Shown piece by piece: positions 24,641 through 44,755 of a stretch of 55,893 nt of DNA. Under the pieces are notes generated by a model. That model made no database searches, was not told where the DNA came from, and saw nothing but the letters and a program-made list of their open reading frames with translations. The translations under genes were made by a program, and so were the position numbers. Source of the stretch: a candidate division FCPU426 bacterium (GTDB lineage: Bacteria; Oederibacteriota; Muellerivitia; Muellerivitales; Muellerivitaceae); NCBI GenBank assembly GCA_030041545.1, contig JASHNQ010000021.1:1-55893 (forward strand), read 5' to 3'. Within the stretch, counting starts at the first letter, position 1; each line of letters starts with the position of its first letter.

Positions 24641-24654
24641 AAGCCTTTTCTATC

Positions 24655-24697
24655 TGTCATTGCGAGCCTCGAACTTTGAGGCGAAGCAACCCAGGTT
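24655..24697. repeat. REP-like hairpin (GTCATTGCGAG...GCGAAGCAA type)
   Basis: The block holds GTCATTGCGAGCCTCGAAC and TTGAGGCGAAGCAACCC, with a small stem CCTC/GAGG. It resembles the short GTCATTGCGAG-type palindromes scattered in many environmental genomes. It lies 13 bases before a GIY-YIG gene. Confidence 0.55.
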
Positions 24698-24709
24698 TAT
24701 GGGTGGTAT

Positions 24710-24949
24710 ATGCCTTACTTTGTTTACATTATGACAACGAAGCGTAACACGGCGCTCTATACTGGTGTGACAAACGACTTGAAAAAGCGAGCCGCCGAAC
24801 ATGCAATGGGAGTGACGAAAGGATTCACCAAGAAATACCATGTGAAAAAACTTGTTTATTACGAAATTTTTGAAGATGCAACTTCCGCTATAACAAGGGA
24901 GAAACAAATAAAAGGCGGATCACGTCAGAAAAAAATAAGTTCTTTTTGA
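24710..24949 (+). CDS. Small GIY-YIG endonuclease-domain protein
   Basis: The protein has 79 residues. The GIY-YIG core is complete in its first part: FVYIM, then LYTGVTNDLKKRAAEH with the conserved Tyr and Arg, and the REKQIKGGSRQKK signature with the metal-binding Glu. It is similar to YhbQ/UPF0213-type proteins. It stops soon after the RQKK motif, perhaps 10 or so residues shorter than many relatives, so it may be slightly truncated. It is AT-rich like the end of tyrS and follows a REP-like hairpin. The natural substrate is unknown. Confidence 0.8.
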   Translation: MPYFVYIMTTKRNTALYTGVTNDLKKRAAEHAMGVTKGFTKKYHVKKLVYYEIFEDATSAITREKQIKGGSRQKKISSF

Positions 24950-25245
24950 AGTTTATGGCTGCACAATAGGGAAAATCCTTAAATTCCCTCCTCGCTTAAA
25001 ACAAATAAAATCTCGTTTTTAGTAGCCTTCCTTCACGACCCTCCGTATAATTTTCACTAACAAAGGTTCGCTTTTTGGGAGATGCTTCCCCAAAAGCGGC
25101 CTTTTGTCGTTTTAGGGCCGATTTTTTCGCCGAAAAACCCTTGTTTTTCTGGCGTCCCGACCCATAAAAATTCCATCGAACGCCAAAAACAAAGAAATTT
25201 CAAAAAATTTCTTTTGTGAAGAAGACTTAAAACCGGGGTTTGAAA
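24950..25245. other. Intergenic region with several hairpins
   Basis: I see no convincing gene in these 296 bases. There is a near-perfect hairpin at about 25069-25096 (GCTTTTTGGG with CCCCAAAAGC) and another at about 25192-25217 (CAAAGAAATTT with AAATTTCTTTTG). They could belong to a terminator or to the yebC leader. Confidence 0.4.
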
Positions 25246-29669: not shown

Positions 29670-29745
29670 GCTGGGGTAGCTCAGCTGGTAGAGCAGCTGT
29701 TTCGTAAACAGCAGGTCGCCGGTTCAAGCCCGGTCCCCAGCTCCA
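29670..29745 (+). tRNA. tRNA-Thr (anticodon CGT)
   Basis: A complete cloverleaf can be drawn: acceptor GCTGGGG/CCCCAGC, D-stem GCTC/GAGC, anticodon stem GCTGT/ACAGC with loop TTCGTAA (anticodon CGT, reading ACG), T-stem GCCGG/CCGGT with loop TTCAAGC, and an encoded CCA end. The 3' half, from the anticodon stem onward, is repeated at 44638-44688 with one difference in the T-loop. This marks the gene as the integration site of the island. Confidence 0.95.
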
Positions 29746-29747
29746 TT
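29697..29747 (+). repeat. Left direct repeat (attL-like) within tRNA-Thr
   Basis: A 51-base segment covering the anticodon arm, T-arm and CCA end of the tRNA plus two bases. It matches 44638-44688 at 50 of 51 positions; the mismatch is G here and A there in the T-loop. It is the left edge of the island. Confidence 0.85.
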
Positions 29748-29818
29748 TTTTCCCTTCGGTAGGGACGCAGTCTTTCGGTTGAAAAGCTGTAAAAAACATT
29801 GTCCCGTGCGAATTTTAG

Positions 29819-29861
29819 AAGCCTCCATCTGGAAAAATTTTTCCGGGTGGAGGCTTTTTTG
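29819..29861 (+). terminator. Strong terminator after tRNA-Thr
   Basis: AAGCCTCCATCTGG at 29819-29832 pairs with CCGGGTGGAGGCTT (one G-T or mismatch position inside), across a loop of A and T runs, and ends in a T-run near 29855-29861. It probably ends the tRNA transcript. No gene is apparent between the tRNA and 30049. Confidence 0.75.
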
Positions 29862-30049
29862 TTTGGATGGTCAGGGATGGTCTTGGGATGAAAAAGAGTG
29901 TCGAAAATGGGGTTGAATGACAACCTTATGACAGCAAAAAACATCTGCTCGGTCTTTTTTGAGCACTTGTGTGGCAATCATCTGCTCGTTTGATTCAGTT
30001 GTAAGGTTTCGATTTTAAAATTTATAACATTGAATTCGTCAAATTAGGT

Positions 30050-30358
30050 TTAGCCCCGAACATCTCTTGCGTTGAACGGGAGGAAATGGGGGCCCATATA
30101 GCCTCGGAATCGAAAATAACCTTGGATGTTTGGTTTGGCGGGCATTCTACTTTTGGTTCTTAAATTGGCGTATTGAAATAAGTAATACAGCCGATTTTCG
30201 TTGCAAATTGTCCCGAGATAAACACCTTTTCGATCTACGACATGAAGTAAATGTGGTATTGGAAACCACCCGATGTAATCGCTGTTTTTATCGTAAATGA
30301 ATTGATCGTATCGGTATGCGATCCATTCACCTTTTGAATTGAATAAATAAAGACTCAT
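30050..30358 (-). CDS. 4-fold beta flower-like protein
   Basis: The protein has 102 residues. The sequence shows repeated short units of the form G-x-(Y/W)-(I/L)-G, e.g. SLYLFNSKGEWIAYRYDQFIYDKNSDYIGWF and VVDRKGVYLGTICNENRLYYLF, the pattern of the small 4-fold beta flower proteins, whose function is unknown. The stop is in the AT-rich left part of the island. No strong ribosome site is seen before the ATG. The call rests on pattern alone. Confidence 0.55.
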   Translation of the reverse strand: MSLYLFNSKGEWIAYRYDQFIYDKNSDYIGWFPIPHLLHVVDRKGVYLGTICNENRLYYLFQYANLRTKSRMPAKPNIQGYFRFRGYMGPHFLPFNARDVRG

Positions 30359-30582
30359 TGGGTTACCCGGTTAATTATGCGGTAGCCATAAATGGTAATG
30401 GGATTTTGAAAATTGAACAACGATTCACTGTTTTCCAAATCCAAAGATATATCATGTTTTTTAAAATGTGTTTAAAGAGCCCGATTCGATTTATGTAAAT
30501 TTAATAATATAGTCTAAAAGTAGTCTTGAAACTCCAAGTAGAAAAGTTAAAATTATGATACGTTATTCTAATGGAGGTTAAA

Positions 30583-31041
30583 GTGACCGAAGGGGAAAGG
30601 TTGGCGCAATTCTCGGAACTGGTCCGTGGATCCAGCCTCAAAAGGTTCAAGCAAGTTGTGGTCGAGGATCGCGGGTGGCAGCCTTTTACCGGACAATTGA
30701 ACTTTGTGGACTTATTAAAACACCTAGTGGATGCCGATCGCTGGGTGATGGCCATCCTTAAAAATGAAAAGCAAATCCCGAGGCCCATTATTAAACCCGG
30801 GGATGGGAAACCCGAGGAATGGGACCGGTACTTTCGGGAATTTGAAAACCTCGGGAAGGAAAAGACTGAAATCATTAAAAGGCTGCCTGAAAGCGAATGG
30901 TCCCAAGATGTGGAGGATACGCAAGTTATGGGAAAAACAAGCAAATGGCTGATCCTTGTGCGAGGCAACTTGGATCATGAAATTCACCACAGGGGATCGC
31001 TTCAAACTATGCTGAATCTAAAATACAAAACGGCGAAATAA
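30583..31041 (+). CDS. DinB/YfiT-family protein
   Basis: The 152 residues look like a four-helix DinB-like fold. The putative metal ligands are a His in LLKHLVDADRW and the histidines of NLDHEIHHRGSLQTML, the typical HxxxH end motif. Members are metal-dependent enzymes, some using thiols such as bacillithiol, but most have no known substrate. I favour the GTG at 30583, because GGAGG lies 5 bases before it; an ATG at 30571 would place that ribosome site inside the gene. It stands alone in the island, with about 220 AT-rich bases upstream that show no other gene. Confidence 0.7.
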   Translation: MTEGERLAQFSELVRGSSLKRFKQVVVEDRGWQPFTGQLNFVDLLKHLVDADRWVMAILKNEKQIPRPIIKPGDGKPEEWDRYFREFENLGKEKTEIIKRLPESEWSQDVEDTQVMGKTSKWLILVRGNLDHEIHHRGSLQTMLNLKYKTAK

Positions 31042-31084
31042 ATTGGTTGTTTTAACGATAGGAAGTCTTCTCGACCCCCGATTT

Positions 31085-32239
31085 TTATTTATATCTCAAT
31101 TTAAAAATCATTTCATCGCCTTCTTTAATAACTCCGACGTTCAAATGCCCCCGTAAAGCTTTATATAGATAATCAGTGTCGTTTAACATCACCTCTGAAG
31201 AAACACTTATTGTAAAAATCAGGTGTAAAAAATCTGCTATCCGTAATTGTTCGTGAACAAAGGTCATCAGATCATCCCATAAAAGACAACGCCAGATGTC
31301 CAATGAAAAGGAGGATTCAAATTGTTTTGTTCGAAAAAAAGTTTTTAACCCTATCAGGGACCATTGCCCTTGGCCAGGATACAAGGGGCCTTGGTGGGAA
31401 ATAAACCCGGAAGACTTATTTTGCCCCCAAAAAATGCTTTTATCCCCCTTTTCAGGGAGAGAAGTTTGGAGGTACCGGCTTATCTCCAACTTCGGCAAAT
31501 CCCGGCTCAGAATTTTTTTATAGTAACGGGCTTTCCCGGCAGCTATGACCGGCGGATCCAAGAAAGATAGCTCGACGTCAAAATATGGTTTTTCAATTAG
31601 GAATTTCATTCGATCGGGTTCTCTGGACGGCGAAGCAAGGCTAGGAAGGTGTCGGGAAACAACTCGGTTCTGATACTTAATTTGTCCGGCTCTGTTTCGA
31701 TCCAATGGATTATGAAAAACTATTCGTTGGAATAGGGTTTGTGGATCGTTGTATTCAACCGTCAGGTTTTCGTCCATTATTTTTCCCTTGGCCAACAGGA
31801 TTGAGGATGGTTTAACGAGTGGCCACCAATAACCGGATGGAATCCCTTCCTTGGCCAAGATGGCCATTTCATTTTCCCTAGTGTCACGGCCGTAGGTTGG
31901 GTCAGTCGCATCTTTTAGCGAGGGTACGTTCTCCGACAAATAAACGTGGGTTTGGGGGTCCAAATAGCATGCTTTAACGGTTTTAAAATCGACCCAAATC
32001 GGATTTTGGGAAAAGAAAATTTTACGAAATGCCTTCCCACGAATAATTCGAAGAAGGCGCCCGCTCAACGCTATTGGATCACGATATAAAATCGGCTTTC
32101 CATTGGAAATCTCCATGGTTTTTCCGGGCAATAAAAAGTGAAATGAAAATGGGGCTTTATCACTGGTAATTTCCCGGATCAACCTTGCTGAACAGCCGGT
32201 ATAACATTCGTCAATAAGGATGATGGCTGGAATCTTCAT
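31085..32239 (-). CDS. Unknown protein paired with a glycosyltransferase
   Basis: The protein has 384 residues and no family I can name. It has no signal peptide or membrane segments, so it is probably cytosolic. The start (KIPAIILIDECYTGCSARLI) reads like the first strand of an alpha/beta fold, and KPSSILLAKGKIMDENLTVEYNDP suggests a beta-rich middle. It has many aromatic and basic residues and few recognisable motifs. It starts 9 bases after the GT2 gene on the same strand, so the two form an operon. A role in processing or transferring the sugar product is possible but is inference from position only. Confidence 0.7.
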   Translation of the reverse strand: MKIPAIILIDECYTGCSARLIREITSDKAPFSFHFLLPGKTMEISNGKPILYRDPIALSGRLLRIIRGKAFRKIFFSQNPIWVDFKTVKACYLDPQTHVYLSENVPSLKDATDPTYGRDTRENEMAILAKEGIPSGYWWPLVKPSSILLAKGKIMDENLTVEYNDPQTLFQRIVFHNPLDRNRAGQIKYQNRVVSRHLPSLASPSREPDRMKFLIEKPYFDVELSFLDPPVIAAGKARYYKKILSRDLPKLEISRYLQTSLPEKGDKSIFWGQNKSSGFISHQGPLYPGQGQWSLIGLKTFFRTKQFESSFSLDIWRCLLWDDLMTFVHEQLRIADFLHLIFTISVSSEVMLNDTDYLYKALRGHLNVGVIKEGDEMIFKLRYK

Positions 32240-32248
32240 TGTATTTTT

Positions 32249-33475
32249 TTAATTGCCTTGTTTTTTATAAAGGATCGTTTGGCGGCCGTTGTTGCGGCTT
32301 GCATTGAAAACAAAACCATTATTTTTTAATAAAGTTGTTATCAGGCGCGTTAAAACACTGTTCGAAGGGTAAAAAAGCCTGACCTTATCCGCGACACGGT
32401 CAAGCTCCTTCAATAAAACCGGAATATCCTCCAACAAGTACAAATCCAGGCAATCCTTGACTAGGCAATTCCTAAAAACCTTGTCATCGTATGGAAGAAG
32501 AAGCCCCAACAAACTATATTCCCTAGGCTCCCCTTGGATAAAACAGGTCATTGATCCCAGATTCGGTCCCAGGACTAAATCATAAGGTTGGATCGACCCG
32601 GTATTAGAGTCCTTCGGAAACCGATTCGGGAGGATAAGGTTCCGGTAATATCGAATCCGCCTAAGAAATTCGCGCCCGAAATAAGCAATCACCAATTCTA
32701 TCTCGAAACTGGGATATTTTTTTAGCATGTATTTTGCGTTTTGGATGAGCTCCACATGGTTCACCTTGGCGTTCCGATAATGGGCCGCATGCATACAGCT
32801 GAATTCGTTCCAATATTTGACTTTCGCCTCCGGTACCGTCTGAAGCACCCTATAGGCCAATTCGATATCCTCAACCCCCCACCCCTTGAAATTCTCATCG
32901 AAGCCGCCGGCCCTGTTAATCATCCATTTCGGAATGGAGGCATGGCAGGTTCCTAAAAAAAACCAGGGTTCTATTTCGAAGGCGCTTCTGTATTGAGAGT
33001 CGGAAAGGATAAATTCACGGAAATCCCGTATATGTAAACCCGAATACGGGGAAAAAATACTTTTTTGGGGGGAATCATTCATTGCAGGCCAATCAGTTTT
33101 ATGGCGAAGCCCCCAAAGGAATGTATTTTTATTGCTCCTGTGATAATCCTCGTGGGCTGATAGCAATTCAGGGGGCGAAATAATGTCGGAGTCGATAAAT
33201 ACGATAATTTCTCCCCGGGCTTCTTTAATTCCTAAGTTTCTAGCGTAGGACCGGCCTTTGTTTCTTGAATACTTAATGTACCGAAAATTTGAGTGGTCAC
33301 CGTACTTTCTGAGCGAGTCCTTGATGGAATAGGGGCTTCCGTCATTGATTAAGAGAACTTCGTAATCCTTTTTTTTAAAAGTTTGGTTCTTGATAGAGAC
33401 GAGACATACATCGAGGGTTTGAACGTCTTTGTAAAAGGGAATAATCACGCTGATTTTTTTCCGGGAGGAATTCAA
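32249..33475 (-). CDS. Family 2 glycosyltransferase (galactosyl/GalNAc-transferase-like)
   Basis: The protein has 408 residues. A GT-A domain occupies about 5-270: ISVIIPFYKDVQTLDVCL, LLINDGSPYS, the metal-binding FIDSDII (DxD), and the acceptor-side GGFDENFKGWGVEDIELAYR motif typical of chondroitin-synthase and polypeptide GalNAc-transferase relatives. Residues about 280-408 form an extra domain I cannot assign. It has no membrane helices. The start codon is TTG at 33475 with AAGG upstream. Together with the downstream 384-residue protein it makes a two-gene minus-strand operon facing away from the cluster that begins at 33995. Confidence 0.85.
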   Translation of the reverse strand: MNSSRKKISVIIPFYKDVQTLDVCLVSIKNQTFKKKDYEVLLINDGSPYSIKDSLRKYGDHSNFRYIKYSRNKGRSYARNLGIKEARGEIIVFIDSDIISPPELLSAHEDYHRSNKNTFLWGLRHKTDWPAMNDSPQKSIFSPYSGLHIRDFREFILSDSQYRSAFEIEPWFFLGTCHASIPKWMINRAGGFDENFKGWGVEDIELAYRVLQTVPEAKVKYWNEFSCMHAAHYRNAKVNHVELIQNAKYMLKKYPSFEIELVIAYFGREFLRRIRYYRNLILPNRFPKDSNTGSIQPYDLVLGPNLGSMTCFIQGEPREYSLLGLLLPYDDKVFRNCLVKDCLDLYLLEDIPVLLKELDRVADKVRLFYPSNSVLTRLITTLLKNNGFVFNASRNNGRQTILYKKQGN

Positions 33476-33994
33476 TGGTAAACCTTTTTAGATGGGTTGA
33501 AAGAGATTGGGGATATTTTTTTAGAATGGTTTTTTAAATGATTTTTTTAAAACGGGAAAACCACTAAATCTGATTTAAGTTTTATACTCCCAATCGATAA
33601 GGGATTATTGGTATTTTTCCAAAAAAGAACGTCTTATCTGAAAGTTGATTGCTTTTTTCACTTCTTGGTTAAAATAATGTAAATTTTTGAAACGAGTCAG
33701 TATTTATGCAAAAAGTCAGTTGATAATGATTTTTTAAATAGAAAGCTTTTGTTTTAACGAAAAAAATTGATTAGAAGTAAATCCCTAAATATAAGCCGTT
33801 TTTCCTTTAAATTTAAAAGGTTCTCTTTTAACTAAAGATTTTGTTGCCAATGCTTTATCAGGTCACTATTTGTGCAAATAATTTTTATTTTGTCTTTAAT
33901 CTTGAAAAATCAATTCTTTAGAAATACTCTTTCATCCCAGAAATTAAATTTTAATTGTGCTTCTAAATTTTTTAAGGAAATTTATTAACCAGTG
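33476..33994. other. AT-rich divergent intergenic region
   Basis: This 519-base stretch is the most AT-rich part of the window, separating the minus-strand GT2 operon from the plus-strand cluster. I find no coding frame of useful length on either strand. It probably carries promoters for both directions (for example TTGATT and TAAAAT boxes near 33646-33675), but the composition makes chance matches likely. It is the best place to look for a very small precursor gene; I found none. Confidence 0.5.
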
Positions 33995-34570
33995 ATGGCC
34001 TCTAGGTCCAAAATCCACCTTAAACGTTTCAAGATAAACGCGATGGACTATTCAAAGCTTTCCATGGAATCTATCCGGTTTAACGGTGGTCTTTTATGTA
34101 CTGTCGATAAAAAGGGTCGGCCAAATATCATGACAATCGGTTGGCTTTTATCAGGTGTGGCTTGGTACCGTCCGGTTTTGTCGGTTTTTGTACGGAAATT
34201 AAGGAAAAGTTATTTCAACTTGGAAGAAAGCGGTGAGTTTACTGTCAACATCGTGAACGAAAAATGTGGAAAATTAGTCCATTTCTGCGGAGAAATAACC
34301 GGCCATAAAGTCGACAAACTTAAATACCTAAAAGTAGGTTTAATCCCCTCCGAAACGGTTCAAGCCCCCACTCTTCAAAAAAGCGTCATCAGTTATGAAT
34401 GTAAAACCATCCAAGTTACGGATGTGCCACCCGCTTACATCCATGCACAGGAGGATCTCAAACTTTTTGACCCGAACTTGTTTTGGCGGGCTTATTTCGG
34501 GGAAGTTACCGCTGCTTATGCTGTTCGAAATCCGGAAAAATACTTTTCAAGATGGGCGTATCCGCTTTAG
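33995..34570 (+). CDS. Flavin reductase-like (FMN-binding split barrel) protein
   Basis: The protein has 191 residues. The pattern fits the flavin reductase/FMN-binding split-barrel family: LLCTVDKKGRPNIMTIGWLLSGVAWYRPVLSVFVRK, SGEFTVNIV, and LKVGLIPSETVQAPTLQKSVISYECK. Such proteins bind FMN and either reduce free flavin or act on small molecules. The ATG at 33995 follows AAGGAAA at a rather long distance; ATG 34043 (MDYSKLSMES) is a possible shorter start. It is 48 bases upstream of the methyltransferase gene, so it may be the first gene of the large cluster and could supply reduced flavin. Confidence 0.75.
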   Translation: MASRSKIHLKRFKINAMDYSKLSMESIRFNGGLLCTVDKKGRPNIMTIGWLLSGVAWYRPVLSVFVRKLRKSYFNLEESGEFTVNIVNEKCGKLVHFCGEITGHKVDKLKYLKVGLIPSETVQAPTLQKSVISYECKTIQVTDVPPAYIHAQEDLKLFDPNLFWRAYFGEVTAAYAVRNPEKYFSRWAYPL

Positions 34571-34618
34571 AAAGCGGCCGGAGCTTAGGAAATCAAAATA
34601 ATTTTAAGGAGGCGTGAG

Positions 34619-35614
34619 ATGTCAAAATTGGAGCAACACCAGTTGAAGGAAACAAAGTGGTTCGAAAAGGAAAAATGGGGGGCTTTTTGGGAGAAAGGCT
34701 ACAGCGATTTGAATGTTTCCTGCATGGGAGGGCCTAGTTTCGAAGTGGTTGAAATAGTACCAGCACTTCCTAAAAACGCGAAAGTCCTGGACCTTGCTTG
34801 TGGGGAAGGAAGGAATTCTCTTTATCTGGCAACTAAGGGTTTTGACGTGACCGCGATTGACCGTTCGGTGGCCGGTATCAACAAACTTCTCCACTTCGCC
34901 CAAAAAGCGAACGTCAAGGTGACGGGAATCGTTTCGGATATCGTCAACCTCGATATTCTCGAGGATTATGATTTGGTCATGGCCCACGGCTGCCTTTATT
35001 ACCTTTCCAATGAGGAATGGCGGGCCCTTCTTTCCGACGTCAAAGATCACACAAAACCCGGCGGATTCAACATCTATTCCGTTTTCATCTTCAATAGCAA
35101 ATACCCCAAACCTCATGAATTTAAATCGGCCCGTTACATGGCTTCTTTCGCACCAAACGAATTGAAGGAATTCTACGAGGGTTGGGAACAGTACCGGTAC
35201 GACGTTTACGACAAATGGGACTCGCACCCTGGTATTCCGATCCATTGTCATCCCGTCGAAAAACTCGTTGCGCGAAAGCCCGGGGGAGCGAAATTGAATA
35301 TCCAGGTCGAGGAGGTCCCGACCAAATTAAACATGACGGAAGAACAGCTTTTATCCATCCAAATGGGCATTCCGGCAGGCGATGTCGTCAAGAAATTCGG
35401 GATTCCGGACCAAAAGGATAAAATCACAGCTGAGGGTCTCCAATTCGGTGCGGTTACGGTTGCGAGGGAGGGAAAACCGGTTGCCACGGTCCAAAACTAC
35501 GATTTGGAACTTTGGTACTACGGAAAGAAATGTGTTGTTTACATCATGAACGGGGAAGCGTGGGGGTTAGCCTACCACACTTCGCCTCCGGTCAGGGTCA
35601 GGGTCAATCCTTAA
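34619..35614 (+). CDS. TehB-like SAM methyltransferase with BamE-like C-terminal domain
   Basis: The protein has 331 residues. Residues about 20-220 are a class I methyltransferase: motif I VLDLACGEGRNS (56-67), acidic residue at the end of strand 2 in VTAIDRS, and HGCLYYLSNEEW, as in TehB-like enzymes. Residues about 235-331 (NMTEEQLLSIQMGIPAGDVVKKFGIPDQ ... LELWYYGKKCVVYIMNGEAWGL) look like the small SmpA/OmlA (BamE) or lipoprotein-attached module, normally found in the periplasm, here without any signal peptide. This pairing is unusual. AAGGAGG lies 7 bases before the ATG. The HAD gene follows at once. Confidence 0.8.
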   Translation: MSKLEQHQLKETKWFEKEKWGAFWEKGYSDLNVSCMGGPSFEVVEIVPALPKNAKVLDLACGEGRNSLYLATKGFDVTAIDRSVAGINKLLHFAQKANVKVTGIVSDIVNLDILEDYDLVMAHGCLYYLSNEEWRALLSDVKDHTKPGGFNIYSVFIFNSKYPKPHEFKSARYMASFAPNELKEFYEGWEQYRYDVYDKWDSHPGIPIHCHPVEKLVARKPGGAKLNIQVEEVPTKLNMTEEQLLSIQMGIPAGDVVKKFGIPDQKDKITAEGLQFGAVTVAREGKPVATVQNYDLELWYYGKKCVVYIMNGEAWGLAYHTSPPVRVRVNP

Positions 35615-35647
35615 CGGGTGAATGCTGCAACGGGGGGCAGTAAGAGG

Positions 35648-36373
35648 ATGCGAAACAGGGAAAAAAGGCCAGGAGCCGCCAAGCCCTATCTTGGTGTCGT
35701 CTTCGATTTATTCGGCACCCTGGTCCCCGTGTTTTCATATCAAAAACATGACGCCGTGATGCGAAAGATCGCGAAAGCCCTTGATATCGACTACTACAAA
35801 TTTGAGAAAGGCTGGGTGGGTTCCTATAAGTATCGGATTCTTGGGAAATTCAAGAGCACTGAGGAAAATATCGGTTGGATCGGGACCAGGAATGATGTCA
35901 AGTTTGAAAACGACCGGATCAAGACCGCGATGTCTCTACTAAGTTCCTTCGTGACCGACTCCCTGGTCCCACAGCCGGGAGCTCTCAAGACATTGAAAGT
36001 GTTGAAGGACAAGGGGTATAAAGTCGGCCTTATTTCGGATTGCGCCCCGACAGTACCGGTCAAATGGCCTCTAACCCCTTTTTACAACCTGATCCAAGCC
36101 CCCTTTTTTTCCTGCCTTGAAAAGACTTGCAAACCGAATCCCCGGATTTACCGGCGTTGCGCAAAGAAGTTGGAGCTGAGTCCGGACAGGTGTCTTTACA
36201 TTGGCGATGGAAGCAGTAACGAATTGCAGGGTGCTTTGAACGTCGGAATGGATCCGGTGCTGATTACAACCGATTTTAAAGACACATATGATTCGAACCG
36301 CCGCGACGTTCAAAGGTGGAAAGGAAAGAAGATCAAAAACCTGAGAGAGGTACTGAAATTTCTCAAAGCCTGA
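35648..36373 (+). CDS. HAD-superfamily hydrolase
   Basis: The protein has 241 residues from the ATG at 35648. HAD motif I is VVFDLFGTL (nucleophile Asp20), motif II is LISDCA, motif III lysine is in KTCKPNPRIY, and motif IV is YIGDGSSNELQGA. A helical cap sits between motifs I and II. It is likely a phosphatase or dehalogenase-type hydrolase acting on a small phosphorylated compound. A GTG at 35618, 4 bases after the methyltransferase stop, is an alternative start; the ATG has AGAGG very close, so neither is certain. Confidence 0.83.
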   Translation: MRNREKRPGAAKPYLGVVFDLFGTLVPVFSYQKHDAVMRKIAKALDIDYYKFEKGWVGSYKYRILGKFKSTEENIGWIGTRNDVKFENDRIKTAMSLLSSFVTDSLVPQPGALKTLKVLKDKGYKVGLISDCAPTVPVKWPLTPFYNLIQAPFFSCLEKTCKPNPRIYRRCAKKLELSPDRCLYIGDGSSNELQGALNVGMDPVLITTDFKDTYDSNRRDVQRWKGKKIKNLREVLKFLKA

Positions 36374-36476
36374 ATTTGAGCCTCGATTTTGACCACCTTG
36401 ATTTTACCCTGGCCGGCCAAACAACACTGAGACTCAATCAAAACTTTTATTTTTCATTTATTCAAGGAGATGTCAT

Positions 36477-37838
36477 ATGACCGTTGTGGAATTATTCGAG
36501 CAAAAGGATCTTTTTGAAACCAGGTTGATGGAAAAGATAAACAACAGGCATTACGAACCTTATATTTACACCTATCCCCCAAAGGGTGCTTTCCGACCAA
36601 ATACCGATTCTGAAAAAGTGCAGCAAAGTTGGAGAACGGTAAGGGGTCCGATTTCACTGTATCTCCACATTCCCTTTTGTGAGATGAAATGCAGTTTTTG
36701 CACACTTTTTACAACTGTCAATCAACCAAAGGAATTGATTCAAACCTATGTGAAGGCCTTGGAGAAGGAATTCGAGATATCCACGACTTTGATGAAAACC
36801 AGCTCAATAACGGTCAATTCCATTTATTTTGGAGGTGGGACTCCGACCCTGATGACTTTTGAACAGATGGGAGGCCTACTCAAACGGATAAAGAACAAGT
36901 TCCGGCTCTCCGAAAATGCCGAAATAGGGCTGGAAGGCGCTCCTAATTCCATTGGCGATGAAAAAATAAGGGAAATCCAAGAACTGGGGTTCAACCGTTT
37001 GAGCATTGGCATCCAGAGTTTTGATGAAACCTTGTTGAGGAACATGGGTCGCCATTACGGAGCGGCCTTGGGGATCGAAACGATCAAAAAAGCTGTCAAG
37101 GCGGGTATCCCGAATGTTAATTTCGACCTGATATATGGAATCCCCGGGCAAACATTTGGCCAATGGAAGGCGCATTTGGAGACGGCGGTTCAATTCGGGA
37201 ACAAGACGATCACAATTTATCCACTTGTAGTCCGAGATCGCGCCGCTTATGGGAAGAAGTACAAAATAGCGCCCGAAAAATTCCTGACCCCGGAAGAGGG
37301 CCAGAAATGGTACGACTTCACTCTGGATTATTTAGAGCAAAACGACTTTTCCCAGCACACTCTTGTTACCTTCGCTAGAAGGGGAGGGGGAAACCAGCAT
37401 GAGGAAAATGAGTTTCGTGGACTTCCGACTTTAGGACTGGGTGCGGGTGCCCGAAGCTATACTCCAAACTTTCACTATACCAACGACGATTATTTCGAGC
37501 CCATGTCCAACCAAAAGGTTATTGAAAGGTATCTCGCGGTTTTGGGTGGCGGGAGAATACCTGTTTTTTCGGGGGTTTCACTCGATGAGGATGAAACGAA
37601 AAGAAGATATTTTATCTTAAACCTCCTTTTTAAAGGGGTTGACGAAAGAGATTATCTTGATCGTTTCGACGAAGCGCCCGAGGAAACTTTCGGTTACGCC
37701 ATATATGTTCTCCGAAAGAATGGATTCATGGAGCAAAAAAACCTTCAATTGAATGAGGAAGGAAAGAAGTTTAGCAGTGTCATCGGGGCCTGCCTTTTCA
37801 GCGAAGCGGTCCAAAAACTGAACATCCGTTATAAATGA
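36477..37838 (+). CDS. Radical SAM protein, STM4012/HemW-like
   Basis: The protein has 453 residues. The Fe-S motif is CEMKCSFC (Cys68, Cys72, Cys75) in YLHIPFCEMKCSFCTLFTT, followed by IYFGGGTPTLM, the LSIGIQSFDE strand, the NFDLIYGIPGQT motif and a HemW-type LGLGAGARSYTP. The N-terminal extension (YEPYIYTYPPKGAFRP) and the CEMxCxFCxLFT wording are like the STM4012 family rather than true HemW or HemN. Such enzymes probably modify a substrate by radical chemistry, but no activity is established. An AAGGAGA ribosome site precedes the ATG. It sits between a HAD hydrolase and a membrane glycosyltransferase. Confidence 0.85.
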   Translation: MTVVELFEQKDLFETRLMEKINNRHYEPYIYTYPPKGAFRPNTDSEKVQQSWRTVRGPISLYLHIPFCEMKCSFCTLFTTVNQPKELIQTYVKALEKEFEISTTLMKTSSITVNSIYFGGGTPTLMTFEQMGGLLKRIKNKFRLSENAEIGLEGAPNSIGDEKIREIQELGFNRLSIGIQSFDETLLRNMGRHYGAALGIETIKKAVKAGIPNVNFDLIYGIPGQTFGQWKAHLETAVQFGNKTITIYPLVVRDRAAYGKKYKIAPEKFLTPEEGQKWYDFTLDYLEQNDFSQHTLVTFARRGGGNQHEENEFRGLPTLGLGAGARSYTPNFHYTNDDYFEPMSNQKVIERYLAVLGGGRIPVFSGVSLDEDETKRRYFILNLLFKGVDERDYLDRFDEAPEETFGYAIYVLRKNGFMEQKNLQLNEEGKKFSSVIGACLFSEAVQKLNIRYK

Positions 37839-37905
37839 CATTCCCCAGGACCAATCTGGGCCACCGTAATCTAGGATTGGCAAAAGGGGAAAAGGTACCA
37901 TATCT

Positions 37906-39561
37906 ATGAAGCGCCGTTATTCTCAACTTCATCTAATCCCCCTTATCGTAGTCGTTTTGGCCCTTTTTGGCTCTGTTACTTTCTGGCCGGTCGAAACTAT
38001 AGGCCGTGGGAAAGAGATTCTGGGCCACGGGAATCCAGAAACCATTCCATTGCTTTTTCTGATTTTCCAAAAGTGGTTGCATTACCTATGTCTCATCTCT
38101 TCAACCTTCAATCGGGAACCTGCCGTGGCGGTATTTCTTTCGATTTTTTCCATCTACAATTTTCTATTCATGTTCAACAACATCAGGAATTTCTATTTCT
38201 GGCCAATCGCGATCCTCGAATTGAACCGATTGAAGGAACAAAAGGCCCGGGCCAGGGTTCCAGATGACCCGCCCTTGGTCAGTGTGATTATTCCGGGAAA
38301 AAACGAGGTCAAAACGATCGTTCAAACCGTCAAATCGGCCTTGGTTCAAAATTACCCCCTCAACAAGATCGTCATCGTCGACGATGGCTCCGATGATGGA
38401 ATGTCCGATCTACTTATCCGAACCTTCGGTTTTGAGAACTCTCCTTCGGATATGGAATGCCTTCGGCAGAACCCGGACCTTCCCGTAAAGGGAGTCATCA
38501 AAAAGGTACTAAAAGCCCAGGGCCATTTATACCTTATCATCAAGGAAAATGCCGGTAAGGGTTATGCGATGAACGAGGGCATCAACTTTTGCAGGGAAGA
38601 AAAATTCGTTTGTGTCCTGGATGCGGACACTATTCCAGACACGGACGGAATCCTGTCGTTGGTTTTTCCCATGATCGAGGAACCCCGGCTGAAAATCGTT
38701 TCCGGCAGGAACCAGTTTATCAATGGATGTTCAGTCGATGAGGGGGTGGTTGTCCGCCAGGTCATCCCCAGGGGCTTCCTTTTAATTTTACAGGTCAGGC
38801 AGTTTTTCAGGGCAAACTGCAACAAGTCTTTCTTCAACTTCCTCAACGCTCAAAAGGTGCTGGTGGGTAATTTTTCTTGCTACAGCCGGGACTTGGTTGT
38901 CCATTTGAACGGTTTCGCGGAAAGGGGTTTGACCGAGGATTACGATTTCAACATGCACGCCCATCAATTAAACGGGCAAGGAGAGAAAATTCTCATCAAA
39001 TCCATCGTCACGGCCCGGGGATGGACCCAGGCACCGTATTCCCTGAAAGGAGTTTTCCACCAACGGGTGCGCTGGGCGGGTGGCATTCTGGCCAGCACCA
39101 TCAAGTACCGCAAAATGGCTTTCCAGGCTAATACGAAATTCATGGGCCTGTACGCCATTCCAGCCGATTGGTTCCGCTTCCTCATGTTCCCGATCAATTT
39201 CATCGTGAACTTTTTGATGACTCCTTTCATTCTTTACGTCGTTTTTTTCACCTCAACCGGTAAACCCGTGGTGTTGGACTTGTTTTATTATTTTTATCTT
39301 CCTGGTTTCGCCCTGTTTTTTATCTTCGATGTCATTGTCGTCAATTTTCTTGATTGGAAATTCATCCAGAGCTACCCCAAAAAAATCGACTATATCTTTA
39401 TGACCTTTTTCTGCATATTCACCGGATGGTTTTTCGAATCCATTATGATGGTTTGCAACCTCGTCGGTTATTGGAGGGCTTTGGCTGGGTATGGTTCCTG
39501 GGGGAAGTCGGAAAGAATGGCACTGCCCGTTACGACCGGTAGCGCGAAAACTTCTACCTAG
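37906..39561 (+). CDS. Processive membrane glycosyltransferase, GT2 (PgaC/hyaluronan-synthase-like)
   Basis: The protein has 551 residues. Two or three N-terminal helices (about 8-30, 60-80, 83-100) precede a GT2 domain: VSVIIPGKNEVKTI, IVIVDDGSDDG, DxD in VLDADT (Asp239, Asp241), LTEDYDFN (catalytic TED), and QRVRW (386-390), the QxxRW motif of processive polysaccharide synthases. Four C-terminal helices (about 415-540) complete the channel. It should build and export a beta-linked polysaccharide or glycosylate a lipid carrier. A long insert between the first two catalytic motifs (about residues 170-215) is unusual. Confidence 0.88.
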   Translation: MKRRYSQLHLIPLIVVVLALFGSVTFWPVETIGRGKEILGHGNPETIPLLFLIFQKWLHYLCLISSTFNREPAVAVFLSIFSIYNFLFMFNNIRNFYFWPIAILELNRLKEQKARARVPDDPPLVSVIIPGKNEVKTIVQTVKSALVQNYPLNKIVIVDDGSDDGMSDLLIRTFGFENSPSDMECLRQNPDLPVKGVIKKVLKAQGHLYLIIKENAGKGYAMNEGINFCREEKFVCVLDADTIPDTDGILSLVFPMIEEPRLKIVSGRNQFINGCSVDEGVVVRQVIPRGFLLILQVRQFFRANCNKSFFNFLNAQKVLVGNFSCYSRDLVVHLNGFAERGLTEDYDFNMHAHQLNGQGEKILIKSIVTARGWTQAPYSLKGVFHQRVRWAGGILASTIKYRKMAFQANTKFMGLYAIPADWFRFLMFPINFIVNFLMTPFILYVVFFTSTGKPVVLDLFYYFYLPGFALFFIFDVIVVNFLDWKFIQSYPKKIDYIFMTFFCIFTGWFFESIMMVCNLVGYWRALAGYGSWGKSERMALPVTTGSAKTST

Positions 39562-39577
39562 GGTTGGAAAATAAACA

Positions 39578-40240
39578 ATGGACAGTGTTTATCCTGATTT
39601 CGAACCATGGAAGCCTCTTAAAATCGGTGGATCCAATCACAACTTCTCGGGTCGATTGATAGTATTTGAAGGGGTGGACGGCTCCGGGAAGACGACTCAA
39701 ATCGAAACGTTGCTCCAAACCTACCGCGCCATCGGGAAAAAATACCTGTTCACGAAGACTCCAACCCCTGAGTTGCGCGAATTTAGCGAATGGAAAAAGT
39801 ACTATTCCGACGAGGATCGGGACCGAGGCATCGGTTTCGGTCTAGGCGTCATGGCCCTGGGGGACCGGTTCATCCATCAGCGTCGTGTGGTCATTCCAGC
39901 TCTCCAGGAGGGAATGGACGTGATCACGGACCGGTATATTCTGACATCGTTGATTCACGACAGCAGCCCCGCGCATGAGTATGTCCTGAACCTTCTCCTT
40001 CGCCCCAGTCTTGGAATTTTTTGCGATGCCTCGGAAGAAATCATCCTCAAGCGGCTGAAGGCACGAGATTTCGAAAAGACTTCCGGTGTCGAATTAACCA
40101 GTATCGGGGTTCAAATCCGCCGGATGCGGCAATTAGCGTCCCTTCACGGTTTTGTGGTTGTTCCGACAGCGACGGATCCAGAGGGAGCCTCGAAACTCGT
40201 CTGGAATGCGGTCAACTCTCTTGAAATTGCCCTTCCATGA
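39578..40240 (+). CDS. Thymidylate kinase-like P-loop protein
   Basis: The protein has 220 residues. The Walker A is EGVDGSGKTT (31-40), followed by a thymidylate-kinase-type DRY motif (ITDRYILTSLIHDSSPAHEYV) and a LID-like arginine region (KRLKARDFEKTSGVEL). The N-terminus is 20-25 residues longer than a standard Tmk. In an accessory cluster it is likely a kinase for a pathway intermediate, or supplies dTDP for sugar activation, rather than the housekeeping enzyme; that is inference. It starts 17 bases after the glycosyltransferase and overlaps the next gene by 4 bases (ATGA). Confidence 0.82.
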   Translation: MDSVYPDFEPWKPLKIGGSNHNFSGRLIVFEGVDGSGKTTQIETLLQTYRAIGKKYLFTKTPTPELREFSEWKKYYSDEDRDRGIGFGLGVMALGDRFIHQRRVVIPALQEGMDVITDRYILTSLIHDSSPAHEYVLNLLLRPSLGIFCDASEEIILKRLKARDFEKTSGVELTSIGVQIRRMRQLASLHGFVVVPTATDPEGASKLVWNAVNSLEIALP

Positions 40241-41415
40241 ACGTTTCAAAGGAATTTTTACTCTCATTCTTCGGGGGAAAAAGAAAACTATACCCATCCC
40301 ATGGCGTCCTCCTGGTAGGTTCGGCCTCCCGCGGCTACTCAACCAAGGCTTCCGATATCGACCTGATGGCGTTTTACAACTCCGGTTCTCAAATGAACCC
40401 AGACTCCGAATTTTGCGTGACAGGCGAAGGGCATGAAATCACTATTGAACACCACGATCTCTCCCGTTTCATCGATGAGGCCCTGGACCACCGGCACAAC
40501 CTTTCCTCCCTCCGCATGTTGAAAAAGGTGAGGGACGCGGTAGTGCTCGAGGCGGACCAGGAATTGATGGGGCTGATAGAACTTGCCAAACAGGCGCATT
40601 TGGACCTGACCGTTATGCTTTGGGCCTTCCGGGAGCTTTCCCGCCAATGGGAAGAAATCAAGTTGGCCAAGCCCGCCCTTCAGCGGCATTACATGATCCA
40701 ATGGGCCGAACTGCTTATCTCTTTGCGGTTGCTCTGCGATAAAAATGCGCCTTCCTATTCCAAACCAAAATGGTTGTACCGGAATCTTCGGGATGGGCAT
40801 TTTGAAGAGATGAAGTGCCTTTTGGACGATCTCTATCAAATTGGGGCGGCCCGCAACGCAGGAAAATTAGAAGCCCTTGAGGGGCTCGAACGCAAGTACC
40901 TGGCCTCCTTTCCGGAGGTCAACCGGGGTTTCATAAAATTCATGGGAACGGAATGCCGGGAAATGGCGGTCCAATTTCCGGAAGAGGCGGGCCCGGTATT
41001 TCGGTTTGCAGCGAATGCCTATTTCTGGCTGCTGTTCGCGAAAGATCCATTGGGATATTTGCGTAACCACGCCCCCTTCAGGGACGCCGAATTTGAGGTT
41101 TTTTATGAAAGAAAAACCCCTGAGAATTACCACCCTACCAGAACCTTGAGGAAATTCGGGTCTTTCATCCGGGAATTGGGACGATGGGTGGTTGCGGACA
41201 TTTCCCTCCATCGGCTGGGTTCAGTGATGAGCCGCAGATTTGTCCCTTATTTTTTAATCAATTACAACATGGCCAATATGCTGCCTTACGGCGGTAAGTC
41301 CACTGATATTATCCCTTCGCTCGGAAAATGTGATTGCCCCGATACGTGGCTTCCCGAAGTTGAAAATTTCCTGGAAATACTCGAATCCTCGGCTGTTTGC
41401 GGGGCGAATCCCTAA
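40237..41415 (+). CDS. Nucleotidyltransferase-domain protein
   Basis: The protein has 392 residues. The N-terminus carries the Pol-beta-type nucleotidyltransferase signature GSASRGYSTKASDIDLMAF, with GS at 28-29 and catalytic Asp40 and Asp42. The rest is mostly helical (about 90-390) with no family I can name; it has the look of a helical substrate-binding or HEPN-like partner region. Possible roles are transfer of a nucleotide to a small molecule, as in aminoglycoside adenylyltransferases, or to a protein. It is coupled to the kinase gene by a 4-base overlap. A small cysteine cluster (KCDCPDTW) lies near the C-terminus. Confidence 0.8.
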   Translation: MNVSKEFLLSFFGGKRKLYPSHGVLLVGSASRGYSTKASDIDLMAFYNSGSQMNPDSEFCVTGEGHEITIEHHDLSRFIDEALDHRHNLSSLRMLKKVRDAVVLEADQELMGLIELAKQAHLDLTVMLWAFRELSRQWEEIKLAKPALQRHYMIQWAELLISLRLLCDKNAPSYSKPKWLYRNLRDGHFEEMKCLLDDLYQIGAARNAGKLEALEGLERKYLASFPEVNRGFIKFMGTECREMAVQFPEEAGPVFRFAANAYFWLLFAKDPLGYLRNHAPFRDAEFEVFYERKTPENYHPTRTLRKFGSFIRELGRWVVADISLHRLGSVMSRRFVPYFLINYNMANMLPYGGKSTDIIPSLGKCDCPDTWLPEVENFLEILESSAVCGANP

Positions 41416-41445
41416 ATTCAACTTGAATGGAAAAACGGTTAAGAC

Positions 41446-43143
41446 ATGAAAGATCTTATATCCGAGCTAACCCAATTGAAGTCGGCGCTTACCTTGCTTT
41501 TCGTATCACTTTTCTTTGCCGCTTTGTCCCAATCCATCGTCCTTTTTATCTTCCCATTCCTCAACATCATCATTTATGACAACTTGATCATCACACTGGA
41601 CAAAAGATTATTGTTCGAATTCCTTCTAGTAATGGCCGTCTTGTTGTTTTCAATGGCTGCCTTTTCCCTGGTTTTAGACATTTCAGCTTCGCTTTTAAGA
41701 ACCAAGGTTTCTACCCTGATGCGGTCGGATTTGCTGGATAGGCTGTTGAAATACAAGTACAGCTTTTACATTGAGAATGAAACTGGCCGGTTGGTCCAAA
41801 AACTAATCCCCGATATGGATGTTGTCGCTGACGCTTCAGCAAAGTTGTTCCTTTCAATAGCCTACTTTTTCCAGTTGATTTTTCTTTTCGTCATCGTCGC
41901 CATGATCGATTCCCAAATATTAATAATTTACCTGGGCATGTTGGTCATCTACTGGTTGTGGTTGATTGTCTGGCGCCCTCATGTAGTTCAATCCAGTTCA
42001 AAAATTGGCGCGGAATACGGATCCTTTTACTCCTGCCTATACGAAGTTTTTCCCGGGATAAAAGAAATCAAATATCTCGGCCTGAATGAATATGTCAAAG
42101 GGCGGGTGCTGAAAAATCTTTTAAATATAAGGCGCTACCAATTACGGAACTCCATTTTTAATTCCTTCCTTTACATGAGCAACTCCATCATTCCTTGGGT
42201 GGGTTATTGCGCCATCCTGGTGGTGGGGCTTTTTAAAATCGGCGAGGGAAAATTCACCATCGGCTTATTTGTAGCCATTTTCAGCTTCATGTGGCGGATT
42301 TTCACACCCGTCGACAAGATTATGGAAGGCTACCTGGCTTCCCAGGAGGCGAAGATCGCAATTCAAAGGATCAACCAAGTCAGGGAAGATTACTTTGAAA
42401 ACAACGGTAAGGTCCATTTGAAAGGCTTCACCGATTCTATCGAGTACAGGAATTTGTATTTCCGATACAACGATGAAAGGGAAATCCTTAAAGGCGTCAA
42501 TTTGAGGATTTTGAAGGGTCAAAACGTGGCCTTCGTAGGTCATTCGGGATCGGGGAAGACAACCCTGGTTCACCTATTCATTAAGCTCTTCGACGGTTAC
42601 AAAGGGAAAATACTGTTGGACGGCAGGGAACTGTCCGAATTCGAGCTGACAAGCCTCCGGAAATTTGTAAGCATCGTTTCCCAGGACGTATACCTTTTCA
42701 ATGACACTATTCGTAGGAACATCGATTTTACCGAAACCATACCCGACGAAAAGATTTTGGAATATTGCCGGTATTCCCATTTGTGGGATCTTATTATAAA
42801 ACTCCCTGAAGGACTGGATACTATCATTGGAGAACGGGGGGTTAAGTTGTCCGGGGGAGAAAAACAACGCCTTGCCCTCGCCCGAACTTTCGCTAAAAAT
42901 TCGGAAATCATCATTTTTGATGAGGCCACATCGGCGCTCGATCCAAAGTTGGAGAAGGAGATCAAAGATAGCATCCTCTTGTTGAACAAGAACCGGACCA
43001 CAATCACGATCACCCATCGCCCCAGCACGGTCGTCGACTTGGACCATATCTTTGTGCTCAAAGACGGTGAGATTGTGGAAGAAGGGTCTCACGGAGAACT
43101 CATGAGCCACAAGGGGCATTATTATGAACTCTTTTACCATTGA
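41446..43143 (+). CDS. ABC exporter (fused membrane and ATPase domains)
   Basis: The protein has 565 residues. Six membrane helices occupy about 15-300. The ATPase domain has Walker A GHSGSGKTT (365-373), Q-loop SQDVYLFND, signature LSGGE (468-472), Walker B IIIFDEATSALD and the H-loop in TITITHRP. It is a homodimeric half-transporter of the lipid/peptide/drug exporter type. There is no N-terminal C39 peptidase domain, so a leader peptide would not be cut by this protein. Its end overlaps the start of the HlyD-like gene by 20 bases, so the two are made together. Confidence 0.92.
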   Translation: MKDLISELTQLKSALTLLFVSLFFAALSQSIVLFIFPFLNIIIYDNLIITLDKRLLFEFLLVMAVLLFSMAAFSLVLDISASLLRTKVSTLMRSDLLDRLLKYKYSFYIENETGRLVQKLIPDMDVVADASAKLFLSIAYFFQLIFLFVIVAMIDSQILIIYLGMLVIYWLWLIVWRPHVVQSSSKIGAEYGSFYSCLYEVFPGIKEIKYLGLNEYVKGRVLKNLLNIRRYQLRNSIFNSFLYMSNSIIPWVGYCAILVVGLFKIGEGKFTIGLFVAIFSFMWRIFTPVDKIMEGYLASQEAKIAIQRINQVREDYFENNGKVHLKGFTDSIEYRNLYFRYNDEREILKGVNLRILKGQNVAFVGHSGSGKTTLVHLFIKLFDGYKGKILLDGRELSEFELTSLRKFVSIVSQDVYLFNDTIRRNIDFTETIPDEKILEYCRYSHLWDLIIKLPEGLDTIIGERGVKLSGGEKQRLALARTFAKNSEIIIFDEATSALDPKLEKEIKDSILLLNKNRTTITITHRPSTVVDLDHIFVLKDGEIVEEGSHGELMSHKGHYYELFYH

Positions 43144-43801
43144 GCAATTCCTGGCCCACGCCCGGGGCAAGGAAAAAAAACTAGTATTTATCAGTCTTGG
43201 GGGGGGAGCGGCGTTCTTTTTCATGGTAGCCGTCCTTCTGAATTTTCCGTTTAAAAATTACATCACCTGCCCCGGCACCTTTGAGTACAAAAACGAGGTT
43301 GAAGTAATTTCAGAAACCGACGGCGTTGTGGATAAGATTCTCAAGAATAATTTTGATGAAATCGCTCAAGATCAGCCGCTCTTGGAATGCCATCTACTTT
43401 TGTTACAGAAATATCCTATGCTTTCACCTGCTTCGGGAAAAATTTACTACAACTCCGACCCCCTGTCCTTGATCGGGTCTTATTTAAGGAAAGGCCAGAT
43501 TGTCGCTTATATCTTCAACGGCGACAAAAAAATAGCGAAGGTCTACGCTTCATTGAACAACGTGGACATGTTCAACGTCGGCCAACAGGTCATTTTGTAT
43601 TACAGGAATCCACACACCCTTTTTAGTCAGAAGATCGAAAGCCGGGTTTCGGACATGTACGTCGATAAGGACAAGGATCAGGTTATTCTTTTTTGCGATT
43701 TCGACAACAAAATCATGGATCTGGAACAGAAATACCCCGGAACCTTGTTGAAAGCAAAAATTTTGATTAATGATAGAAGTCTGCTGAAAAGTCTTTTTTA
43801 G
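43124..43801 (+). CDS. Short HlyD-like periplasmic adaptor
   Basis: The protein has 225 residues. One membrane helix (about 21-40) follows a basic cytoplasmic start. The periplasmic part has two lipoyl-type half-motifs, EVEVISETDGVVDKIL and MLSPASGKIYYNSDP, and a beta-barrel-like region (KVYASLNNVDMFNVGQQVILYY). The long coiled-coil hairpin of normal HlyD/MacA adaptors is missing between the half-motifs; only a short linker is there. It may therefore not reach a TolC-type outer-membrane channel. It overlaps the ABC exporter gene by 20 bases. Confidence 0.78.
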   Translation: MNSFTIEQFLAHARGKEKKLVFISLGGGAAFFFMVAVLLNFPFKNYITCPGTFEYKNEVEVISETDGVVDKILKNNFDEIAQDQPLLECHLLLLQKYPMLSPASGKIYYNSDPLSLIGSYLRKGQIVAYIFNGDKKIAKVYASLNNVDMFNVGQQVILYYRNPHTLFSQKIESRVSDMYVDKDKDQVILFCDFDNKIMDLEQKYPGTLLKAKILINDRSLLKSLF

Positions 43802-43859
43802 GAGAGCTACACTCCGCCAATTTCAAGCCGAGGTCAATTTTTATAAAAAGGAAAATCTT

Positions 43860-44264
43860 ATGGAAAAGTTTAAAGATTTTAAAATCTTGCGAATATTTGT
43901 TGGTGAAGAAAAAAAATATGATGGGAAATTGGTTTATAAGTCTATCATGAATCGGCTCCAAGAATTGAAAGTGGCGGGCGCGACAGTATTTAAAGGTATC
44001 GAAGGATTTGGTTCCTCATTCCGGCTTCATTCTTCGAGAATTATCGAAATTTCAGAAAATCTACCTATAATGATTGAAGTGGTGGACAAGCCCAAAGAAA
44101 TCCATAGGGCTCTGAAAGCTCTTAAACCCATACTTCTAACCAACTGCCTGGTTACGATGCAGAATATTCAAGTCCTTCCTTACAATCAGAACAAAAAAAG
44201 GAATTATCAAACTAAAATCCCCGAAAAAAAATTTAATATGCTGAAGAAGTTGTTTATCCGTTGA
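43860..44264 (+). CDS. DUF190 protein (PII-like fold)
   Basis: The 134 residues match DUF190: LRIFVGEEKKYDGKLVYKSIMNRLQELKVAGATVFKGIEGFG, then SSRIIEISENLPIMIEVVDKPKEI. Family members are small trimeric proteins resembling PII signal proteins and are often next to CrcB fluoride channels. No crcB is nearby here. The basic tail (QNKKRNYQTKIPEKKFNMLKKLF) is longer than usual. It follows the HlyD-like gene by 58 bases and may or may not belong to that operon. Confidence 0.8.
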   Translation: MEKFKDFKILRIFVGEEKKYDGKLVYKSIMNRLQELKVAGATVFKGIEGFGSSFRLHSSRIIEISENLPIMIEVVDKPKEIHRALKALKPILLTNCLVTMQNIQVLPYNQNKKRNYQTKIPEKKFNMLKKLFIR

Positions 44265-44270
44265 GGAAAT

Positions 44271-44357
44271 CGTAAAGGAGGTCCTTCTTTCACATCAGAA
44301 GATTTTCAAGGCGCTATTGTTTATGCGGCGAAGCTGGCGAGTTTGAGAAGGATATGA
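44271..44357 (+). pseudogene. Remnant of a DUF433-type antitoxin
   Basis: The frame reads FTSEDFQGAIVYAAKLASL before a TGA at 44355-44357. This matches the end of DUF433 (VapB-like) antitoxins, whose last helix reads like L-T-x-E-D-I-x-A-A-I-x-Y-A-A-x-L. No start codon, no N-terminal part and no PIN-like toxin gene are present. It lies in the same frame directly after the DUF190 stop. It looks like debris of a toxin-antitoxin pair. Confidence 0.5.
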
Positions 44358-44637
44358 CAAGAGGCACGGAAAACGACCGATTTTTTTGACTTCCTCCCAT
44401 GCAGGACAGGAGATTTAGGCTTGTCCTTCCAGGCCATCGTTTGGTGTCATATACGTGTCAAACTCAACCCTCGAAATCGGGTTTTGACCGTCGCCAAGTG
44501 TCCTTGACCGTCACGTCAAAAAAATAGCCCTTGCCCGTTTGGGTCGTGAAACCCTTACAGGCAAAGGCCTTTGAAACTGTGCTGGGGACTAGTTAATTTT
44601 TTGAAACAGACTTCATGAAGCTGGTAAACTGCCGTTC

Positions 44638-44688
44638 CTGTTTCGTAAACAGCAGGTCGCCGGTTCAAACCCGGTCCCCAGCTCCATT
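44638..44688 (+). repeat. Right direct repeat (attR-like), 3' half of tRNA-Thr
   Basis: The 51 bases run from the anticodon stem to CCATT, matching 29697-29747 with one change in the T-loop. The 5' half of the tRNA is not intact here, so it should not be a functional tRNA. It marks the right edge of the island; the rpsP promoter begins 68 bases further on. Confidence 0.85.
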
Positions 44689-44755
44689 CTTCGCTCCCTT
44701 GGCCGCGTTGTTCCATCCTCGGAACCCGAATTTTGGCCCTTTTCGGCCTATTTCC

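Follow-up and report, generated by a model that had tools for sequence, protein, structure and literature searches.

What raises a question at this locus is a tRNA-Thr(CGT) gene that is intact at one end of an interval of about 15 kb and present as a 3' half at the other. We asked whether the interval is one integrated unit and, if so, how it came to be there. The sequence analysed, referred to here as the window, is the whole stretch of 55,893 bp, which is contig 56 of a 3.8-Mb genome in 115 contigs. Our reading, to which we assign a probability of roughly 0.87, is that positions 29752-44637 are one site-specifically integrated tRNA-Thr element of 14.9 kb, CIME-like and without an integrase.

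The tRNA-Thr gene and its repeated half

The sole tRNA of the window, found by both ARAGORN and Rfam, is the tRNA-Thr(CGT) at 29670-29745. An earlier note on this DNA had reported that its 3' half is repeated further along, and we find that positions 29697-29747 are indeed matched 14.9 kb away at 44638-44688, with 50 of 51 bases identical and one mismatch. The arrangement, an intact tRNA at one end (29670-29745) and a partial copy at the other (44638-44688), is also as described there. Chance can be excluded as the origin of the repeat because all 12 repeated 20-mers of the 55,893-bp window fall within this 51-bp pair. The sequence between the copies is AT-richer, as had been claimed, with a GC content of 44.4% vs 57.0% and 57.9% in the flanks, or, per 1-kb window, 0.445 +/- 0.044 between the copies vs 0.574 +/- 0.044 outside. 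Two GC outliers lie beyond the island, one at 24001-25000 (44%) and one at 15001-16000 (71%, with strong negative skew). The features of the repeat are the following:

29670-29745, plus strand: intact tRNA-Thr(CGT), the attL site, with a native 5' half and an element-donated 3' half (from ARAGORN, Rfam and the mismatch)
29697-29751, plus strand: left att core, from the anticodon stem-loop to just beyond the 3' end, with the element-type base (CAAGCCC)
44638-44688, plus strand: right core copy, the displaced native tRNA-Thr 3' half; here the base is the native one (CAAACCC), shared with relatives G001 and G005

The assignment of the two halves comes from the lone mismatch of the repeat, which sits at a T-loop position that reads CAAACCC in the right copy and CAAGCCC in the intact tRNA. 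CAAACCC is also what G001 and G005 have in their own, native tRNA-Thr, and CAAGCCC is found in both element cores on contig C49 of the genome studied here. Since the right copy shares the native base and the intact tRNA shares the base of the element cores, the element supplied the present 3' half of the tRNA, and the native half is the one displaced to the right end. A donated 3' half together with a displaced native half is the outcome expected of attP x attB recombination.

The insertion locus in related genomes

The gene order around the insertion, ruvC-ruvA-CBM11-tRNA-Thr-rpsP-KH-rimM-trmD-rplS, is kept in relatives. The earlier note had predicted that an empty site would show tRNA-Thr next to rpsP, and this is what is present in three relatives from the same family (G005, G006 and G007), where the tRNA and rpsP are 170-330 bp apart with nothing between them. 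In the sister genome G001, a different insert of ~16 kb is located between tRNA-Thr and rpsP. There is no tRNA half near rpsP and no arm of the kind described below, so the locus must change by other means too. Judged by sequence alone, the G001 insert (contig C11, 24.5-40.7 kb; L052 and L068) contains an AraC-type regulator, repeat-rich surface proteins, among them long threonine/proline-rich repeat proteins, a response regulator and a kinase. In G003, two contigs terminate within tRNA-Thr, which we infer to be assembler behaviour at a repeated core.

Conserved ends of the island

Both ends of the island have the same architecture, in inverted orientation. From the core outward, it consists of a hairpin with a T-run, then GGTCA, exactly 49 bp, and TGACA-N6-TGACA:

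29819-29863, plus strand: hairpin with a T-run, module 1 of the left arm; homologous blocks are found after tRNA-Met (C50) and tRNA-Phe (C35)
29869-29933, plus strand: left arm, with GGTCA (29869), 49 bp, and TGACA-N6-TGACA (29918-29933)
44252-44359, plus strand: remnant, with a frameshift, of a DUF433-type gene of which contig C106 has an intact copy; a degenerate arm site (44342-44359) lies in the tail of the remnant
44444-44637, minus strand: right arm, with TGACA-N6-TGACA (44445-44460), 49 bp to GGTCA (44505-44509), and a hairpin (about 44527-44568)

TGACA-N6-TGACA occurs twice in the window, at 29918 and 44445, inverted and 167 and 176 bp from the core. Across the 3.8 Mb there are 15 occurrences, and none of the reversed-pattern control. 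The composite arm, GGTCA-N44-TGACA-N6-TGACA, is found in the window at the two island ends only, where by our own estimate, based on 15 fixed bases, about 1e-4 would be expected by chance per window. In the other DNA stretches examined, it occurs on C49, beside tRNA-Met (C50), beside tRNA-Arg (C114) and once in G001. At 10.3 bits, the site of the left arm is the weaker of the two (right arm, 31.5 bits). BLAST of the left arm against the right found no homology; the left arm was detected via the half-site pattern and via the C50 and C35 ends, being homologous to the sequence that follows tRNA-Met and tRNA-Phe there. The right arm (44444-44637) is 85% identical to C49 across 194 bp. With the core included (44444-44691), 248 bp match the terminus of a further element, on C49, at 87.5% identity, and the core of that element is the same tRNA-Thr half. 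The island ends are homologous to the integrase-bearing elements of C49, C106 and C114, and inside there is only the DUF433 remnant, which points to decay of the right end.

These ends bear on three other explanations. An old tandem duplication of tRNA-Thr, in which only a 3' half of the right copy survived, would fit GCTGGGG (44581) and AGCTGGTA (44619), both present upstream of the right copy and suggested earlier to be traces of a second tRNA. However, they lie in the stretch that is shared, along with further upstream sequence, with the C49 element end, and since this homology continues past them, to about 190 bp from the core, we do not consider them tRNA remains. Composite arms flank both copies of the repeat, and in the three relatives with an empty site tRNA-Thr stands next to rpsP with no second copy, so we regard a duplication as hardly credible. 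The second explanation, two or more tandem elements whose internal junction has been lost, has parallels in the tandem arrangements of C49 and of C69, where there are three tRNA-Ser 5' halves, but 29934-44341 has no internal core and no TGACA pair, and we consider it quite improbable. The third is that the cargo entered by homologous recombination or another mechanism between pre-existing tRNA halves, much as the G001 locus gained 16 kb without att marks. Paired cores with arms already imply an earlier element of this kind, though, and such an arrival would therefore be a mere replacement of cargo, a course of events that we think very unlikely here.

Cargo

The open reading frames between the arms are listed below.

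30050-30358, minus strand: ORF with a weak match, just below the cut-off, to 4-fold beta flower protein
30571-31041, plus strand: DinB_2 superfamily protein
31085-32239, minus strand: 384-aa protein with no family match
32249-33475, minus strand: GT2 glycosyltransferase
33992-34570, plus strand: flavin reductase-like protein
34619-35614, plus strand: TehB-like SAM methyltransferase
35618-36373, plus strand: HAD hydrolase
36477-37838, plus strand: radical SAM protein, closest to the STM4012 family (328 bits; cut-off 380)
37906-39561, plus strand: membrane GT2 glycosyltransferase
39578-40240, plus strand: thymidylate kinase-like protein
40237-41415, plus strand: nucleotidyltransferase-like protein (weak match)
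41446-43143, plus strand: MsbA-like ABC exporter
43124-43801, plus strand: possible exporter adaptor, with a weak match to RND periplasmic adaptors
43860-44264, plus strand: DUF190 protein

A reasonable guess is that this is a biosynthesis-and-export cluster. No precursor peptide was found in the AT-rich gap at 33475-33992, where the ORFs are at most 38 aa and none is convincing. A defence function was considered and set aside; PADLOC gave weak domain-level matches (methyltransferase, ABC ATPase, kinase) and no system. Among the island ORFs there is no match to a relaxase, a coupling protein or a T4SS.

The two cargo genes that we tested, for the radical SAM protein and the methyltransferase, lack close relatives both in the phylum and in the related genomes. 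For the radical SAM protein, relatives from the phylum give HemW-level matches only, 33% at best, and the TehB-like methyltransferase has no match in 18 relatives. In a Chlamydiae MAG, a homologue of the radical SAM protein (39%) adjoins a homologue of the methyltransferase (48% identity), and proteins of the STM4012 family occur on rhizobial plasmids. Together, the empty sites, the paired arms, the A/G mismatch, the right end homologous to C49 and the cargo missing from relatives bear out the earlier proposal that the approximately 15 kb are one integrated unit.

Integrases elsewhere in the genome

The island itself has no integrase by Pfam or tblastn, and tblastn with the C106 integrase found no integrase remnant within it. 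Its matching ends nevertheless place it in a mobile-element family present at several other tRNA genes of this genome. Four related tyrosine integrases are intact (C100, C106, C114 and C69), and each is encoded beside a tRNA or partial tRNA. The C106 integrase adjoins a tRNA-Asp half (45/45), with the intact tRNA-Asp 20.8 kb away, and that of C114 adjoins a tRNA-Arg(ACG) half (49/49), with the intact gene 15.4 kb away. The C100 integrase is next to a tRNA-Met half, and the C69 integrase is next to tRNA-Ser(TGA), which has 5'-half copies at 11393 and 35577. A fifth integrase, on C49, is 10 bp from a tRNA-Thr core and has suffered an in-frame loss of about 213 codons; this truncated gene is the sole integrase with a Thr core found in the genome.

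We noted several further arrangements in these regions. The 20.8-kb tRNA-Asp element of C106 (L063 5232-12216, L102 8444-8521) has a TraG/TraD-type coupling protein as well as its integrase, so at least one member of the family looks mobilizable. It is followed by a small tandem segment with AbiEi/AbiEii-like and DUF433 genes, and C100 also carries a tRNA-Asp half of the C106 type. On C69 (L065 6068-11433, L097 5577-5616), the two 5'-half copies are located 5.3 and 29 kb upstream of tRNA-Ser(TGA), and these are tandem elements that use the tRNA 5' half, unlike the Thr, Asp and Arg elements, which are on the other side. The tRNA-Ser(GGA) region of C114 (L064 8081-8537) has a 265-bp near-identical tandem repeat containing the first 21 bases of the tRNA. 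On C49, the truncated integrase is at L009 14568-15101, and the adjacent tRNA-Thr 3' half is not part of a tRNA gene and seems to mark a secondary site within another gene, of which there is a C-terminal fragment without a relative in 11 genomes. Also on C49, at L009 9865-10285, a tRNA-Thr core is flanked by arms on both sides, which could be attP-like or mark where two tandem elements meet; the other end of the left one was not located.

The arm site TGACACGKATATGACA is present in G001, G003, G004 and G005, all of which hold an integrase of the family. It is missing from G002, G007 and G008, as well as from G006, whose integrase is more distant (50% identity), and the single one-mismatch matches in G009 and G015 do not rise above control level. 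In G000, G001, G003 and G005, the site overlaps or abuts the 3' end of the integrase gene. Because of this position, and because near relatives have the sites only where they hold this integrase family, we take them to belong to the integrase system.

A model of integration

Tyrosine integrases dock on arm sites with their N-terminal domain, and the inverted arms at both ends of the island are most likely docking sites of this kind. In the model that we propose, a tyrosine integrase, from a family widespread in this bacterial family and probably a Thr-specific member of it, would have recombined an element-borne tRNA-Thr 3' half with the chromosomal tRNA-Thr(CGT). At the left (attL), the element-borne half would have made the tRNA whole again; the native half would have moved 14.9 kb to the right, before rpsP (attR). 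The crossover was most likely in the anticodon loop, since the identity with C49b starts at the loop's TTCGTAAAC. For renewed movement, a relative specific for Thr would have to act in trans or stand in tandem. Given that the only Thr-core integrase found is the truncated one of C49, the island, presumably mobile in the past, is probably stranded today.

It is also conceivable that the island is a natural non-autonomous satellite, one that never had an integrase and that integrases of the family residing in the same genome mobilise regularly, in trans, via the shared arms. Hairpin-type arms without an integrase are also located beside tRNA-Met (C50), beside tRNA-Phe (C35) and at C49a, and the same arm type is found beside the integrase-bearing elements of C114 and C106. 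However, a second complete island without an integrase was not found: there is no partner half for the tRNA-Phe on C35, and the tRNA-Met half is on another contig, beside an integrase. The right end, with its DUF433 remnant, looks decayed, and because the cores differ by tRNA, cross-mobilisation would need a Thr-specific integrase, of which only the truncated one was found. A satellite origin thus seems unlikely to us. The broader notion of a trans-acting network, in which a single arm code serves integrases that target different tRNAs and integrase-less islands are satellites that borrow a core-matched integrase, is a tentative one, and we would sooner doubt it than adopt it.

Comparison with known elements

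For an element that integrated at tRNA-Thr and has no integrase today, several known systems offer partial parallels. Tycheposons of marine and freshwater bacteria are cargo elements at tRNA genes that carry a tyrosine recombinase; the island is likewise cargo at a tRNA gene, but without a recombinase. With the tRNA-targeted islands of tyrosine integrases it shares the direct repeat from the anticodon loop to the tRNA end, the restored intact tRNA, an integrase family beside tRNA genes, and an empty site in relatives (G005, G006 and G007) where the tRNA is next to the right flank. It differs from them in having no integrase, and in that the arm sites are near-identical among integrases of one genome that target different tRNAs. 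An IME encodes its own integrase, whereas the island has none. The IME/ICE-like element of C106 has the same arm architecture, and its integrase is of the family and in the same genome; unlike the island, it has an integrase and a TraG/TraD-type coupling protein, and its core comes from tRNA-Asp.

The closest fit is with cis-mobilizable elements (CIMEs), remnants of ICEs or IMEs that have lost their genes for integration and transfer and keep attL and attR (PMC5704250), and that are mobilised in cis after accretion. They have been described in streptococci and others. The island keeps both att sites, each with a core and an inverted arm, and has its cargo between them in the 3' end of a tRNA. 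With no integrase gene and no recognisable transfer gene, it fits the structural part of the CIME definition, as an island that is either decayed or non-autonomous, and tandem remnants of its element family are found elsewhere in the genome. A difference is that its host belongs to a poorly sampled lineage.

Significance

The kind of element described here is already known, and as an example it is unusually complete. What is new is the conserved arm at both ends, the direction of integration read at the level of a base, the missing integrase, and the integrase family at other tRNA genes. The locus provides a tRNA island without an integrase whose limits are fully defined, in a bacterial lineage that has been little studied, together with a base-level record of which half of the tRNA the element brought. 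It also provides a testable arm code common to integrases that differ in their tRNA target. With the arm signature, one can locate the ends of elements that have no integrase, which are a usual blind spot of island finders that begin from the integrase.
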